From a virus, in IMG/VR virus record IMGVR_UViG_3300020459_000003, positions 1-37,035 of that record: 37,035 bases of DNA; one strand, 5' to 3'. The notes under the pieces were generated by a model. The model saw only the letters and a program-made list of their open reading frames with translations. It was not told where the DNA came from and searched no databases. This document shows, one piece after another, positions 7,391 to 18,464 of this stretch; the stretch's first letter is position 1; every line of letters starts with the position of its first letter. Position numbers and translations under genes: made by a program.

Positions 7391-7420
7391 ATTATATACT
7401 GGGGTTGACCCATACGTCTA
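7391..7420 (-). promoter_or_regulatory. Promoter with GGGTTGACCC operator, drives 7149-7361
   Basis: On the minus strand TAGACG (7415-7420), 18 bp, TATAAT (7391-7396). The palindromic operator GGGTTGACCC (7402-7411) lies inside the spacer, so a bound protein would exclude RNA polymerase. It is one of six such sites. Confidence 0.75.
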
Positions 7421-7444: not shown

Positions 7445-7657
7445 TTACGGCGCAGGTACAAGCATATGTTGAGCGTGTTCTGAAGTTCTACCGTCGGGCC
7501 ATTTTACTGTGCAGTAATAACCGGGAGTCCCTTTCTTATTGTGCTTAACCTTCATCGAAACGACGGTTCCAATAGATGAGCATATTTTTAAACAGACCCC
7601 AGTATTCCTTTTCTTGTTCACCTGATCGTTGATTTTATAGCGCGGAGTTGCTCCCAT
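7445..7657 (-). CDS. 70-residue protein, SH3/KOW-like fold suspected
   Basis: From ATG 7657 the sequence is MGATPRYKINDQVNKK...; a GTG at 7705 would add 16 residues that look less protein-like. The order YKINDQV, GTVVSMKV, GYYCTVKWPDGRTSEH is typical of small SH3-like beta barrels, where a Gly-Thr-Val strand is followed by a Val-Lys-Trp-Pro-Asp-Gly hairpin. Such domains bind nucleic acid or protein. No clear operator is found upstream. Fold assignment is inference from the pattern only. Confidence 0.6.
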   Translation of the reverse strand: MGATPRYKINDQVNKKRNTGVCLKICSSIGTVVSMKVKHNKKGTPGYYCTVKWPDGRTSEHAQHMLVPAP

Positions 7658-7857: not shown

Positions 7858-8010
7858 TTAAAAGATAAAGGCGGCTGAGATAGAGAAAGCTGCAAGGTAG
7901 AAAAGAAACATGGTTGCTTTTTCCTGATTGTTAGCTCTCTTATCTAATCCTTTAGCTGTCCTGAGTAATTCAGGCTTAAGCATCTTTGAAAGAACTTTTG
8001 TGGAAGTCAT
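7858..8010 (-). CDS. 50-residue protein with C-terminal membrane segment, operator-controlled
   Basis: A complete frame starts MTSTKVLSKMLKPELLRTAK and ends in a hydrophobic tail, MFLFYLAAFSISAAFIF (about residues 34-50), so it would be tail-anchored with its basic N-terminus inside. It has its own promoter (8048-8076 with operator 8060-8069) about 30 bp upstream and its own strong terminator. This isolated cassette suggests that expression under repressor control matters. A role in superinfection exclusion or host membrane change is possible but unproven. Confidence 0.6.
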   Translation of the reverse strand: MTSTKVLSKMLKPELLRTAKGLDKRANNQEKATMFLFYLAAFSISAAFIF

Positions 8011-8047: not shown

Positions 8048-8076
8048 AATATACATCAGGGGTTGACCCTTTACTA
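8048..8076 (-). promoter_or_regulatory. Promoter with GGGTTGACCC operator, drives 7858-8010
   Basis: On the minus strand TATATT (8048-8053) is a good -10 box; the -35 region (8071-8076, TAGTAA) is weak. The operator GGGTTGACCC is at 8060-8069 between them. A GTTACT element lies 23 bp upstream of the operator (8093-8098). Confidence 0.7.
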
Positions 8077-8117
8077 CGTCTCGTTAGCAATTAGTAACAC
8101 TTTCAAAAAATACGCAT

Positions 8118-8157
8118 AAAAAAGACCTCTGTGAGTATGTCGGTTCACTGAGGAGGT
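8118..8157 (-). terminator. Intrinsic terminator of the 8118-8289 RNA
   Basis: On the minus strand ACCTC and GAGGT form the outer stem, GTGA and TCAC the inner stem, followed by C and six T (8118-8123). No gene precedes it on that strand back to the promoter at 8296-8324. Confidence 0.85.
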
Positions 8158-8289
8158 AAGGCCGCTGAGTTAACTAGCCGCAGATCAGACCGTAAAGGCT
8201 GCGCTCACCATGTTTCGCAGTTTCAGGTGAAAGACTGACGCTTATCGTGTCCAGCGCGGAGAAGTCACGCCCGATATGTGACTTAAGGC
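8118..8289 (-). ncRNA. Candidate repressor-controlled small RNA, about 170 nt
   Basis: A promoter with operator (8296-8324) points leftward into 172 bp that hold no frame longer than about eight codons and end at a strong terminator. The predicted RNA can form a 7-bp perfect hairpin near its 5' end (AAGTCAC/GTGACTT). It could also form a possible pseudoknot in the middle (TCACC with GGTGA, interleaved with CTGCG and CGCAG). One central stem (CTGGACAC/GCGTCAG) carries an A-C mismatch on this strand. It is not a family I know. Confidence 0.65.
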
Positions 8290-8295
8290 CTAATA

Positions 8296-8324
8296 AATAT
8301 ATCAGGGGTAGACCCTTTAAGCAA
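8296..8324 (-). promoter_or_regulatory. Promoter with GGGTAGACCC operator, drives the 8118-8289 RNA
   Basis: On the minus strand TTGCTT (8319-8324), 17 bp, TATATT (8296-8301). The operator GGGTAGACCC (8306-8315) is in the spacer, three bases after the -35 box, the same phase as at 10512-10540 and 12749-12777. It lies just beyond the stop codon of the methyltransferase. Confidence 0.75.
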
Positions 8325-8329
8325 TAGGT

Positions 8330-9064
8330 CTAATTAGAAACAGTAAGTTTTTCTAAATCTAAAACCCTTTGTAGTGGTATCGCTGCAACTTGAGGACAAA
8401 CTGAATTTCCTAGGGCTTTAGTTCTGTGTATCCAATTGGATAGCCCATCGCTTCCTCTGTCCAACACGGGTTTACTCTTGTACCGTCGCCAGTCTGGGTT
8501 AATACGTCGGCTATCCTTTTGGCTCCATGTCTGGCTTGAAACCCCTGCCCTGATCTTCCTTTGTAATCCGAGGCAACTGGGGTAGGCAACAAGCCAAAAT
8601 CTGTCTCTTTTATGGCAGGCTCCCAAAGCACTTGCTGGTATGCATGCATATTCTGTGTCATACCCTGCCGAGGCCAACTCTCCGAGTACGATTCCCAACC
8701 CGTTAAAAAGGATCGCTGCGACGTTTTCCAAGACAATGTATTTTGGTCGAACCAAGCAAATGATTCGCATGAGCTGGAAAAACAAACCTGACCTAGTTTC
8801 TTTGGTGATACCGGCCTGCAAACCGGCTTGGCTGATGTCTTGGCAAGGAAATCCCCCGCAAATAACGTCTGCTGAATATGGTTCGGGGTTGTATGTTCTG
8901 ATGTCATGGAATTGTTCGACATGGGGCCAATGCTTTTTTAATACCTTTTGACAAAATGGTTCACACTCGACAAATGCAACTGTTTTAAATCCTCCAACTA
9001 ATTTTTCCGCCGAGAAACTAAAACCGCCAATACCGCTAAAGGTGTCGATAAGTCTAAGCGTCAT
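8330..9064 (-). CDS. C5-cytosine DNA methyltransferase (Dcm type)
   Basis: The protein has 244 residues. Motif I is DTFSGIGGFS (7-16). Motif IV is GGFPCQDIS with catalytic C74. Motif VI is ENV (113-115). Motif VIII is HKRDRFWLVA (151-160). Motif X is TKALGNSVCPQ near 215-226. It would methylate C5 of cytosine using S-adenosylmethionine. The target-recognition region between VIII and X is only about 50 residues, which is short even for phage enzymes. No partner restriction enzyme is present, so it is an orphan that probably shields phage DNA. The start overlaps the stop of RusA (ATGA). A second long frame lies wholly inside the gene (8410-8922). Confidence 0.9.
   Translation of the reverse strand: MTLRLIDTFSGIGGFSFSAEKLVGGFKTVAFVECEPFCQKVLKKHWPHVEQFHDIRTYNPEPYSADVICGGFPCQDISQAGLQAGITKETRSGLFFQLMRIICLVRPKYIVLENVAAILFNGLGIVLGELASAGYDTEYACIPASALGACHKRDRFWLVAYPSCLGLQRKIRAGVSSQTWSQKDSRRINPDWRRYKSKPVLDRGSDGLSNWIHRTKALGNSVCPQVAAIPLQRVLDLEKLTVSN
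8410..8922 (-). CDS. Nested frame inside the methyltransferase, LLPTP...GYPIGYTEL family
   Basis: This 170-residue frame lies entirely within 8330-9064 in another phase. It has a recognisable order: SPKKLGQVC, NTLSWKTSQRSFL, SESWPRQGMTQN, FGLLPTPVASDYKGR and finally RVNPCWTEEAMGYPIGYTEL. I recall proteins with this pattern (LWPTPTA..., LNPEWVEWLMGFPIGWTDL) in many phages, usually annotated vaguely as methyltransferase-related and apparently arising from the second frame of such methyltransferase genes. It is either a true overprinted gene or a conserved by-product of the methyltransferase sequence; sequence alone does not decide. Confidence 0.4.
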   Translation of the reverse strand: MSNNSMTSEHTTPNHIQQTLFAGDFLAKTSAKPVCRPVSPKKLGQVCFSSSCESFAWFDQNTLSWKTSQRSFLTGWESYSESWPRQGMTQNMHAYQQVLWEPAIKETDFGLLPTPVASDYKGRSGQGFQARHGAKRIADVLTQTGDGTRVNPCWTEEAMGYPIGYTELKP

Positions 9065-9498
9065 GGCTGACTACTTAACGTAATAGATGCCCCCGGACTT
9101 TCCCCCGGCTCGCAATATCGTTTACTTGCTATCCAATGAATAATCTGTGAATCATCTCTTACTAATCCTGATTGTTGTATCGAATCCCCTATTGATCTAA
9201 TTAATTTATCCGTGTCACTTTTTGTCGTTTTATATCTAGGGGCAGCAGGCCTCAACGTCCCTTTAGTTCCATAATGGGATTTAGGGCGCATAAAGCGAAA
9301 TTCACAAGAGACACTAAACGCACAATCAATATCCCAATCCTTTGGTTTAGCAGCTATTAGATAAGTCATCACATCCTGTCGCCAAGATTTCAATTCTTTA
9401 TCGTTGCTATAAATCACACCGAAAGCAGTACGTTTTAAACTCCCCTGCGCGACAGGTACACCAACAACATCAACGCTAATTATTTTCATAGTTTTCAT
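9061..9498 (-). CDS. rusA: RusA-like Holliday junction resolvase
   Basis: The protein has 145 residues. The RusA signature is clear: KSDTDKLIRSIGDSIQQSG (from residue 93, with D95 and D97), DDSQII (115-120) and K126, followed by the usual Pro-Gly-Ser C-terminal strand. RusA dimers cut four-way junctions; in phages they resolve recombination or replication intermediates before packaging. ATG at 9489 is an alternative start. It overlaps the genes on both sides, so it belongs to one leftward operon together with the exonuclease upstream. Confidence 0.85.
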   Translation of the reverse strand: MKTMKIISVDVVGVPVAQGSLKRTAFGVIYSNDKELKSWRQDVMTYLIAAKPKDWDIDCAFSVSCEFRFMRPKSHYGTKGTLRPAAPRYKTTKSDTDKLIRSIGDSIQQSGLVRDDSQIIHWIASKRYCEPGESPGASITLSSQP

Positions 9499-12809: not shown

Positions 12810-13571
12810 ATGCCTACGCATACGCCACAAAGATCAGAACAATTGCAACAAGGTTTACAAAATTTTGCATTATTTATTCGTAGAGGCAGGGAATTAAATA
12901 ACTTATCGCAGCAAAATTTGCATGTATTTTTTAAGATCCTACTTGTCAATATTTATAATTCGCAACTATCACACATGGAACAAGGGAAATTAATTTTAAA
13001 ACCCGGCACTTTTGTTGAATTAGAAAAAGGTAATATTGCCATGGATGATAAAAAAAATATCCCACCAACTCAAAAAGATTTTAGTAAGGAAGTACGCGAG
13101 AAATTTTTACAAGCAACACCCTATTTAAATTGTGATGGCGAAGTATGCGACGCAACCGATTTTTTCCGTATCTTTGTTGGTATTGATGAACTACATAAAT
13201 CCTACTTAACAAAAGGCGTTGAAATGACGCAAGAAATGGCGCATAGATGCAGTGTTTATGATCGAAATATTTTCAGGGGATTCTGCGAAGAAAAAATGCT
13301 TGATCGTGACGAGGCTTGGGAAAAAATGTTACCTGAAATTGAAAAAGTTATGCCCCAGAAGAAACAACGTCAACACTTCCGTTTGATATGTGCCGGATTA
13401 GAGGAATGGTCGTTACCTGAAATCAAATCTTATACAAAGAACGGAACGATTGAAGTTTGTCCTGTTAATCAAATGTTCTCAAAAGTAATGAAAAGAAAGA
13501 TGCCCGATTGCATGACCGTTTGGACAAAAGGCGATCAAATCAAATACAGCCAGCTACAGCCTTTACGCTAA
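12810..13571 (+). CDS. HTH (XRE/Cro-CI type) transcription regulator, candidate lysogeny repressor
   Basis: The protein has 253 residues. FALFIRRGRELNNLSQQNLH (about 17-36) and VNIYNSQLSHMEQGKLILKP (about 47-66) fit the XRE layout, with NSQLSHMEQGK as the recognition-helix end. The C-terminal ~170 residues, with three Cys and two Trp-containing motifs, do not look like a LexA/CI self-cleaving peptidase; I see no Ala/Cys-Gly site or Ser-Lys pair. Its own promoter carries the GGGTTGACCC operator. This makes it the best candidate for the protein that binds the six operators, but that is inference. No other gene in the window looks like a phage repressor of this size. Confidence 0.6.
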   Translation: MPTHTPQRSEQLQQGLQNFALFIRRGRELNNLSQQNLHVFFKILLVNIYNSQLSHMEQGKLILKPGTFVELEKGNIAMDDKKNIPPTQKDFSKEVREKFLQATPYLNCDGEVCDATDFFRIFVGIDELHKSYLTKGVEMTQEMAHRCSVYDRNIFRGFCEEKMLDRDEAWEKMLPEIEKVMPQKKQRQHFRLICAGLEEWSLPEIKSYTKNGTIEVCPVNQMFSKVMKRKMPDCMTVWTKGDQIKYSQLQPLR

Positions 13572-15412: not shown

Positions 15413-16630
15413 TTGCCAAAACTTAAGCGTAAATCAGGTGATTGGGCCGAATACTTTCAACGCGGCATTAAAGAGATTGGACAAGGTTGGTCTGTTGTAG
15501 ACCATAGAGGAAAAGTACTGTTATTTTTTAGACCTAAAGGGGCAAAACCTCAATCAGTAAAATTAGATTTCCTATGGGAACGCGGAGCAAGTAAAGACGC
15601 AGAAATAAGAATTAGAAAAATATATAACCTCACCCTTGAGGGCCATGATTTAAAAACCGCCTCAAAAATAGCGTCTGGTAATGCCCCTAAAATTGAACGG
15701 GATTGGTCACTGTGTTTAAAGAACTTCGAGCAATACAAAACAGAGCATGAAAACGCTATTACTCAAAAGACATTTAACCACGATTACAAAAGCGTTTTAT
15801 CTGATGCTGTTCAATTATTAGAATCTAAAAATCCACCAACTAACCCCGCTGATTTAATTGATTTAGTAATTCGTAAATGGCCCCCCGGAACACCAACAAG
15901 AAAGCGCCGCACAAATAACCTTTGTCAGTTTTTGGAGTACACAGTAACGAGAGAAAACGCCCCCGCCTCTTGGCTTCCTCCTACAAATAGACAAATACAT
16001 ATAGGAAGAAAAGTAGCTAAAGCAAAAACACAAAAAAAAGACCCGATAACTGATCAAGAAATACTAAATCTAATTGAACAAATCCAATCAACCGCCGCGG
16101 GCATCAAGTGGGCCAACACCCTAAAACTCATTGCTGAATATGGCCTTCGACCTGTCGAAATTAAATACATTCACGTAAGAACAGATAATAAAACTAATGA
16201 AGAATACCTTTGGTGCTCTTATGAGAAAAGGAGTGGTGGAGGAATAACAAAACCTAGAAGATTGGAACCGCTGCCAATAGAAAACACGCAATGGAATTTA
16301 TTACCCTTATTAAAAATTGGTCGTCTCGAATTACCTTCTTTAACTGCTAAAGGTAACGGCGTAGCGGAAGCAATTCGCAAATATTTAGAACGTCGTTCGG
16401 CGTGGGCATCATTAAAAGCAATAGTTGAATCAAGGAATGAGCAGCTAGGGACATATTCGTTTAGACATTCTTACAGCGTAAGAGGACATAGCAAATACGG
16501 TATTGATAGCGGTGCAATGTCGAACGCAATGGGGCACTCGCTGGAATGTCACCTTAGAGAATATCCATTTGCAACAACATCAACAACTGAATCAACTTTT
16601 AAAAAAGCAAGAAATAAAGTCCGATCTTAA
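15413..16630 (+). CDS. int: Tyrosine recombinase (phage integrase)
   Basis: The protein has 405 residues from TTG 15413; no ATG is available near it. The N-terminal ~100 residues form an arm-binding-like domain, and a SAM-like core-binding domain follows to about 205. In the catalytic domain, EYGLRPVEI gives R246, YSFRHSYS gives R351 (the usual HxxR His is Tyr348), AMGHS gives H375, and HLREYPF gives the nucleophile Y384. All residues needed for catalysis except the often-substituted first His are present, so it should be active. It lies next to attP. Its stop codon falls in the first hairpin of the repeated RNA element at 16619-16996. Confidence 0.9.
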   Translation: MPKLKRKSGDWAEYFQRGIKEIGQGWSVVDHRGKVLLFFRPKGAKPQSVKLDFLWERGASKDAEIRIRKIYNLTLEGHDLKTASKIASGNAPKIERDWSLCLKNFEQYKTEHENAITQKTFNHDYKSVLSDAVQLLESKNPPTNPADLIDLVIRKWPPGTPTRKRRTNNLCQFLEYTVTRENAPASWLPPTNRQIHIGRKVAKAKTQKKDPITDQEILNLIEQIQSTAAGIKWANTLKLIAEYGLRPVEIKYIHVRTDNKTNEEYLWCSYEKRSGGGITKPRRLEPLPIENTQWNLLPLLKIGRLELPSLTAKGNGVAEAIRKYLERRSAWASLKAIVESRNEQLGTYSFRHSYSVRGHSKYGIDSGAMSNAMGHSLECHLREYPFATTSTTESTFKKARNKVRS

Positions 16631-18254: not shown

Positions 18255-18464
18255 ATGGCTATTAAATGGGTAACACAAGTAGAAGCATGCGAAGCGTTAG
18301 GAATGGGCAAATCTACAATTCAAAAATTACGCAACAAAGATAAGATCCTAGTAATTGGAAAGCATTACAGAAGAAAAACACCAACATCTAAAGTACTCTT
18401 ATACAACCTAGAAGCTTGCGATAAAACCCTTTCTAAGCTCTGTTCAACCCCGCTAGAAGCCTAA
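18255..18464 (+). CDS. Small HTH protein, excisionase/MerR-like
   Basis: The protein has 69 residues. AIKWVTQVEACEALGMGKST, then IQKLRNKDKIL, fits the winged-helix of excisionases and MerR-like proteins (Q-x-E-x-A-x-x-L-x-x-x-x-x-T-I-x-x-L-x). A positively charged wing follows (GKHYRRKTPTSKV). It could be an excisionase, although it lies about 1.6 kb from the integrase, or a regulator of the right-hand genes. It is the first gene after the rightward promoter. Confidence 0.65.
   Translation: MAIKWVTQVEACEALGMGKSTIQKLRNKDKILVIGKHYRRKTPTSKVLLYNLEACDKTLSKLCSTPLEA

Follow-up and report, generated by a model that had tools for sequence, protein, structure and literature searches.

A predicted operator-controlled RNA in a gene-free interval of an aquatic phage belongs to a widespread family with a covarying pseudoknot

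The window analyzed here is a 37,035-nucleotide stretch of DNA from a cyanobacterial virus, corresponding to positions 1-37,035 of IMG/VR record IMGVR_UViG_3300020459_000003 (abbreviated W where it is listed with other loci). Integrase and excisionase-like genes at 15413-16630 and 18255-18464 indicate that the phage is probably temperate. The locus of interest lies on the minus strand, where a RusA-like resolvase gene (9061-9498) is followed by a DNA cytosine methyltransferase gene (8330-9064; phrog_363, E 3e-63) and, directly downstream of the latter, by an interval bounded by a promoter and a terminator. Immediately behind the U-tract of that terminator, an ATG opens a mini-frame of four codons (MRIF; 8103-8117, minus strand); beyond it lie a second operator-promoter, GGGTCAACCC (8050-8078, minus strand, with its operator at 8060-8069), and an ORF of 50 amino acids with a hydrophobic C-terminus (7858-8010, minus strand), which matches no PHROG or Pfam family and is followed by a terminator at 7850-7833. 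An ATG at the place of the mini-frame recurs across most of the AT-rich clade of related phages to which the window belongs, and ORFs resembling the 50-residue one stand directly behind the operator-promoter in relatives. These relatives are collected loci, mostly IMG/VR contigs, and are denoted below by L-numbers.

A reading made from the window alone had proposed that a full leftward promoter with operator (8296-8324) drives a structured RNA that contains no frame over eight codons and ends at a strong terminator (8118-8157). Most of this description withstood comparison with related genomes. The sigma-70-type promoter comprises a -35 element TTGCTT (8324-8319), a 17-nt spacer and a -10 element TATATT (8301-8296), with a predicted start near 8290; the spacer holds the palindromic operator GGGTAGACCC at 8306-8315, which reads GGGTCTACCC on the minus strand (8315-8306), occurs six times in the window and is conserved in relatives. 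Although the -35 hexamer is poor, matching the consensus at three of six positions, relatives that carry the operator in the same place have better hexamers (TTGACA-AGGGTCAACCCCTGTGTG-TATAAT in L014, TTGACA...TATATT in L020, and consensus hexamers likewise in L010), so that the promoter assignment in the window is sound. The predicted transcript runs on the minus strand from about 8290 to 8118, some 173 nt. Its start codons open frames of only 8, 8 and 7 codons, the one exception being a GTG frame of 24 codons that begins within the terminator stem (8148) and runs beyond the transcript, and ARAGORN detected no tRNA or tmRNA in the region. An intrinsic terminator is indeed present at 8118-8157 (stem 8153-8126, U6 at 8123-8118, -8.3 kcal/mol), but its energy alone is unexceptional (z -0.94). 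Promoter and terminator signals of its own are present for the RNA, whose transcription is itself predicted; transcription, control by a repressor and an effect on genes are inferred.

The exact operator sequence GGGTNGACCC occurs six times in the window, at 7402, 8060, 8306, 10522, 12758 and 13636, against 0.04 occurrences expected. These sites appear to define one repressor regulon, in keeping with the sequence-only reading, which had placed the RNA under common control with the early genes. The RNA stands at one site of the six; another operator adjoins the gene of a 253-residue protein (12810-13571) that has no Pfam or PHROG match. In other phages, the promoter of the RNA contains different palindromes, GTTGCACCCCATGCAAC and, in the isolated phage S-CBS1, GACCTAGGCAGGTC (L045 1957-1973, L049 3969-3985, L059 3965-3978). 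These suggest that the RNA may be repressor-controlled there too; the stretches examined contained no further close copies of either palindrome.

Relatives of the RNA were gathered from IMG/VR by pattern scans that first used short segments from the 5' domain and then stepwise relaxed ones, and were supplemented by one exact match in a GTDB genome and by the isolate Synechococcus phage S-CBS1. Two alignments were used, A1 with 38 sequences and A2 with 65 rows, 53 of them distinct and with GC contents of 0.49-0.72, together with two covariance models, R1 and R2, the latter built from 24 GC-rich relatives alone, with the window and the AT-rich sequences excluded. The models delimit a conserved core of 89 nt at 8201-8289 (minus strand). 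From its 5' end this core comprises hairpin H1 (8262-8284; 8284-8278 paired with 8268-8262, AAGUCAC/GUGACUU, 7 bp, loop AUAUCGGGC), an unpaired CUCC at the H1-H2 joint that is conserved in A1 (8258-8261), and hairpin H2 (8238-8257; 8257-8253 paired with 8242-8238, GCGCU/AGCGU), with the conserved loop GGACACGAUA. A pseudoknot helix a:a' (8218-8237; CAGU 8237-8234 with ACUG 8221-8218) is crossed by hairpin H3 (8206-8229; CACC 8229-8226 with GGUG 8209-8206), the loop of which includes ACUGCGA (8221-8215); H3 is short in the window, with four pairs and an internal loop. The family consensus in A1 has the same anatomy, in the order GCC..AAG, H1 with a variable stem and an AUA.. loop, unpaired CUCC, H2 with the loop GGACAMGADA, strand CAGC (a), and an H3 with a variable stem and a heptaloop N4-CGA, in which N4 is a', the complement of strand a. 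Between core and terminator, an extra domain (8158-8200, minus strand) is confined to a long type of the RNA (window, L005, L033, L045 and L049), and its five sequences gave no settled structure.

The evidence for this fold is comparative. Three H1 pairs are changed on both sides among relatives, a single H2 pair occurs as C-G, U-A, A-U and G-C, and in A2 compensated changes affect all four pairs of the pseudoknot helix, for which CAGC/GCUG is replaced by CAGU/ACUG, CUGC/GCAG or CGGC/GCCG. Compensatory changes persist within the AT-rich clade as well, where the pseudoknot is CAGU/ACUG in the long type and CAGC/GCUG in the short type and an H2 pair is G-C, A-U or U-A. In A1, whose assembly by pattern search is biased toward the conserved core, H1, H2 and a:a' pair in 91% of cells, with a covariation of 0.456 against 0.157 in shuffled and at most 0.084 in slid controls; the shuffles ignore relatedness, while the slide control and the separately built R2 are independent of it. 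The model-fitted A2 gave 0.503 against 0.168 shuffled, and H3, counted separately in 22 gapless sequences trimmed around its loop, gave 0.569 against 0.153. RNAalifold, run unguided, recovered H1, H2 and the pseudoknot helix. Since both crossing helices covary, there is good support for an H-type pseudoknot or for two states that alternate, and comparison shows that the 89-nt core folds, as judged from sequence, into H1, H2 and an H-type pseudoknot. The 7-bp hairpin near the 5' end and the possible pseudoknot in the middle that had been noticed in the single sequence thereby gain the support of relatives. The folding energy of the window sequence by itself is no better than that of shuffles (z +0.68), so that the structure is visible only by comparison. 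A kissing contact of the H1 loop with that of H2 (UAUC/GAUA) was considered and rejected; it fits the AT-rich clade but is not conserved in the GC-rich family.

The search for homologues by structure that had been proposed as a check on the candidate RNA returned 65 copies with model R1 among the collected loci, nearly all of them IMG/VR contigs, and with them a family supported by covariation. Model R2, to which neither the window nor its AT-rich relatives contributed, detects the window RNA at 49.6 bits (E 3e-10; E-values of both models are rough), the next match in the window scoring 9.6, and also detects AT-rich, P2-like and S-CBS1-type members, L045 and L049 with lower scores. No Rfam 15 family reaches its gathering cut-off on the window RNA, permissive scans yielding only sub-threshold chance matches, and we found no description of the family in the open-licence literature. 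By its match to these models, the window RNA is a member of a previously undescribed family that occurs in dozens of aquatic viruses and usually precedes what appear to be small early genes.

The carriers include siphovirus-type genomes, a T7-like podovirus and P2-like myoviruses, with a single isolate, S-CBS1, whose host is Synechococcus. Each record has one copy, except L066, in which two tandem copies (7488-7656) lie directly upstream of the gene of a 593-residue serine integrase. Siphovirus-type copies are found near RusA or methyltransferase genes (window, L005, L029, L039, S-CBS1); RusA stands just upstream of the RNA in S-CBS1, L005, L029 and L039 and, by reading, in L047, L082 and L093. 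In the P2-like contig L043 and its near twin L040, the RNA lies behind a baseplate-hub gene. The GTDB scan, made with an exact marine pattern, found one contig, that of L051, where the RNA lies between a scaffold gene and hli-psbA. This contig (1-8000), binned in a 'Gammaproteobacteria' MAG, is a T7-like cyanopodovirus with hli and psbA; a group I intron is also present, and a glutamine-II riboswitch lies between psbA and the gene for the capsid. No copy was found in 19 genomes related to that MAG, in PLSDB plasmids (blastn), or by model search in the isolates S-CBS3, S-H1, P-SSP7, Syn5, P-SS2, S-CBS2, KBS-S-2A, S-RIP1 and S-SKS1; a match in S-CBS4 (10.8 bits, E 0.58) was not significant, and pattern matches in L034, L036, L038, L041 and L044 lacked the fold and were set aside as chance. 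The RNA is likewise absent from L014, L018 and L020, close relatives of the window with the same methyltransferase and operator.

The position of the RNA relative to genes differs between the GC-rich and AT-rich members. Of the 44 GC-rich copies, 36 are followed at a distance of 11-32 nt by an ORF of at least 40 codons, compared with 13-15% by a comparable ORF-proximity criterion at random positions in the same contigs. A Shine-Dalgarno sequence precedes none of these 36 ORFs but 20% of the long ORFs in those contigs. The contrast is weak; such absence is common in these genomes. The ORFs encode small proteins with a membrane stretch (predicted by eye), some with an added C-terminal helix-turn-helix, and others of no known function. 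Many copies stand immediately behind promoters; since some GC-rich ones follow an intergenic hairpin with no evident promoter, a position at the 5' end of a transcript is not universal. The AT-rich clade, which comprises a long version (W, L005, L033) and a short one (L008, L029, L032, L035, L037, L039), has the order core, terminator, second operator-promoter and gene in all of these loci. In near relatives the same operator-promoter runs straight into a small ORF or into other leaders, which marks the promoter-leader joint as a site where leader modules are exchanged. Five relatives devoid of the family RNA (L009, L010, L014, L015, L017) carry, from operator-promoter to small ORF, a leader of another kind with two hairpins, GUCAAUUCGACCCGUGGAGACACGG. 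In L033 (1125-1365) and L035 (2858-3105), the second operator-promoter is followed by a GC-rich, structured-looking RNA of about 230 nt, without an Rfam match, and then by the small ORF.

With a repressor-controlled promoter and a terminator of its own, and a second promoter serving the small gene, the window RNA is probably free, at about 173 nt. The sequence-only reading had taken it for a candidate regulatory RNA, naming action on host mRNA, antisense regulation and a protein sponge among the possibilities. Its view of a non-coding, operator-controlled, structured transcript holds, and the label of regulatory RNA is supported in part, but those modes of action found no support; since relatives mostly have this fold as the 5' leader of a small phage ORF, the RNA more likely originated as a cis-acting element. 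We accordingly give about even chances to an explanation in which the RNA, as a leader, modulates a small early gene in cis and was released secondarily, in this clade, as a free RNA. By this account, the RNA would be transcribed when the repressor is absent, upon infection or induction; the fold, then part of the 5' leader of a small early mRNA, would originally have governed in cis the translation or stability of that message, which lacks a Shine-Dalgarno sequence; and in the window's clade the terminator and second promoter would have separated leader from gene, so that most molecules would be free RNAs of about 173 nt retaining the folded core. Preservation of the fold in a detached leader suggests either a continuing function for the free RNA or some remaining importance of read-through. 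Several points run counter to this account: the window RNA no longer abuts its gene and yet keeps its fold, which is more easily explained by a role as free RNA; the genes downstream of the copies are diverse; some GC-rich copies have no evident promoter ahead of them; and ORFs lacking a Shine-Dalgarno sequence are common in these genomes.

The main rival, though on balance unlikely, is a trans-acting small RNA, about 173 nt in the long type and 110 nt in the short, that would act on host or phage by base pairing or by binding one of its proteins. Such a role is possible because the RNA would form a separate, terminated transcript in the window's own clade; terminator-ended units occur in the AT-rich siphoviruses and in P2-like L040 and L043, compensatory changes are kept within the AT-rich clade, and the unpaired CUCC between two hairpins has the layout of the cyanobacterial sRNA Yfr1 (PMC6778093). 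Most GC-rich copies are nevertheless 5' leaders immediately preceding ORFs, conserved loops common to phages of very different base composition suit a fold better than an mRNA seed, and L014, L018 and L020 manage without the RNA. A riboswitch or attenuator, in which the H1-H2-pseudoknot core would sense a small molecule or protein and thereby control termination (short type) or translation, seems to us improbable: no common pathway unites the downstream genes (small TM and TM-HTH ORFs, hli, serine integrase), and the GC-rich type has neither a U-tract nor a Shine-Dalgarno sequence to sequester, even if the compactness of the fold, its loops being conserved and its stems variable, the tandem copies in L066, the position before hli-psbA in L051 and the short type, in which H3 is itself the stem of the terminator formed by H3 and U5, would accord with it.

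The placement of the RNA, often directly behind an early-type promoter and, in W and L040, ahead of terminators, also recalls a put-like antiterminator that rides on host RNA polymerase past downstream terminators; put, too, is short, structured and close to early promoters (PMC9378689). The architecture is different, however, put consisting of two stem-loops with no reported pseudoknot, and in the window a new promoter comes after the terminator, while the RNA accompanies just one of the six operators; we regard this reading as very improbable. Least credible, and hardly to be entertained, is that there is no functional RNA and that the conserved block represents a DNA element or an accidental remnant between promoters. 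The single sequence does fold no better than shuffles, but conservation across the 53 distinct rows, with GC contents of 0.49-0.72, concerns base pairs rather than bases, and this covariation disfavors the idea.

The finding is real, and wider than the sequence-only reading stated. Returning to the cis-leader explanation, we tentatively extend it, with less than even confidence, to a new class of phage RNA: an interchangeable promoter-leader cassette in siphovirus-, podovirus- and myovirus-type aquatic phages, in which an H-type pseudoknot would control small early genes that lack Shine-Dalgarno sequences, and from which one clade may have made a repressor-controlled free RNA. Phages of cyanobacteria shape aquatic primary production, and to our knowledge few structured RNA families have been described from them; the present family is widespread, has a pseudoknot supported by covariation, lies outside the current RNA library, and may show a route from cis leader to free regulatory RNA. 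Its occurrence in an isolated, published phage, S-CBS1, makes expression and function directly testable.

Several known RNAs invite comparison. The lambda P-R' 6S leader RNA is promoter-proximal, about 190 nt long, ends at an intrinsic terminator and lies downstream of recombination genes. The window RNA is likewise promoter-proximal, terminator-ended and downstream of recombination genes, but no Q-like gene was seen here, and the 6S leader is not known to form a conserved pseudoknot. With Yfr1 the window RNA has in common a CU-rich unpaired motif between two hairpins; however, the Yfr1 motif ACUCCUCACAC is absent from it, its own being ACUUCUCCGCG, and Yfr1 is a host sRNA whereas the window RNA is phage-encoded. 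Yfr1 is not known to have a pseudoknot of the present type. In phage HK022, put RNA suppresses termination via the zinc-binding domain of RNA polymerase beta'. The putL and putR RNAs, about 70 nt long with two stem-loops and no protein product, are structured and lie at early promoters or close to them (PMC9378689). In its position near early promoters the window RNA is partly similar, but its core of H1, H2 and a covarying H-type pseudoknot is a different fold from that of put. Also comparable are manA, wcaG and PhotoRC-II, structured 5' leaders of cyanophages and marine metagenomes that precede metabolic and photosynthesis genes, manA and wcaG occurring in T4-like cyanophages (PMC2864571); those families are represented in Rfam, whereas the present one matches none of its entries and mostly precedes small ORFs.
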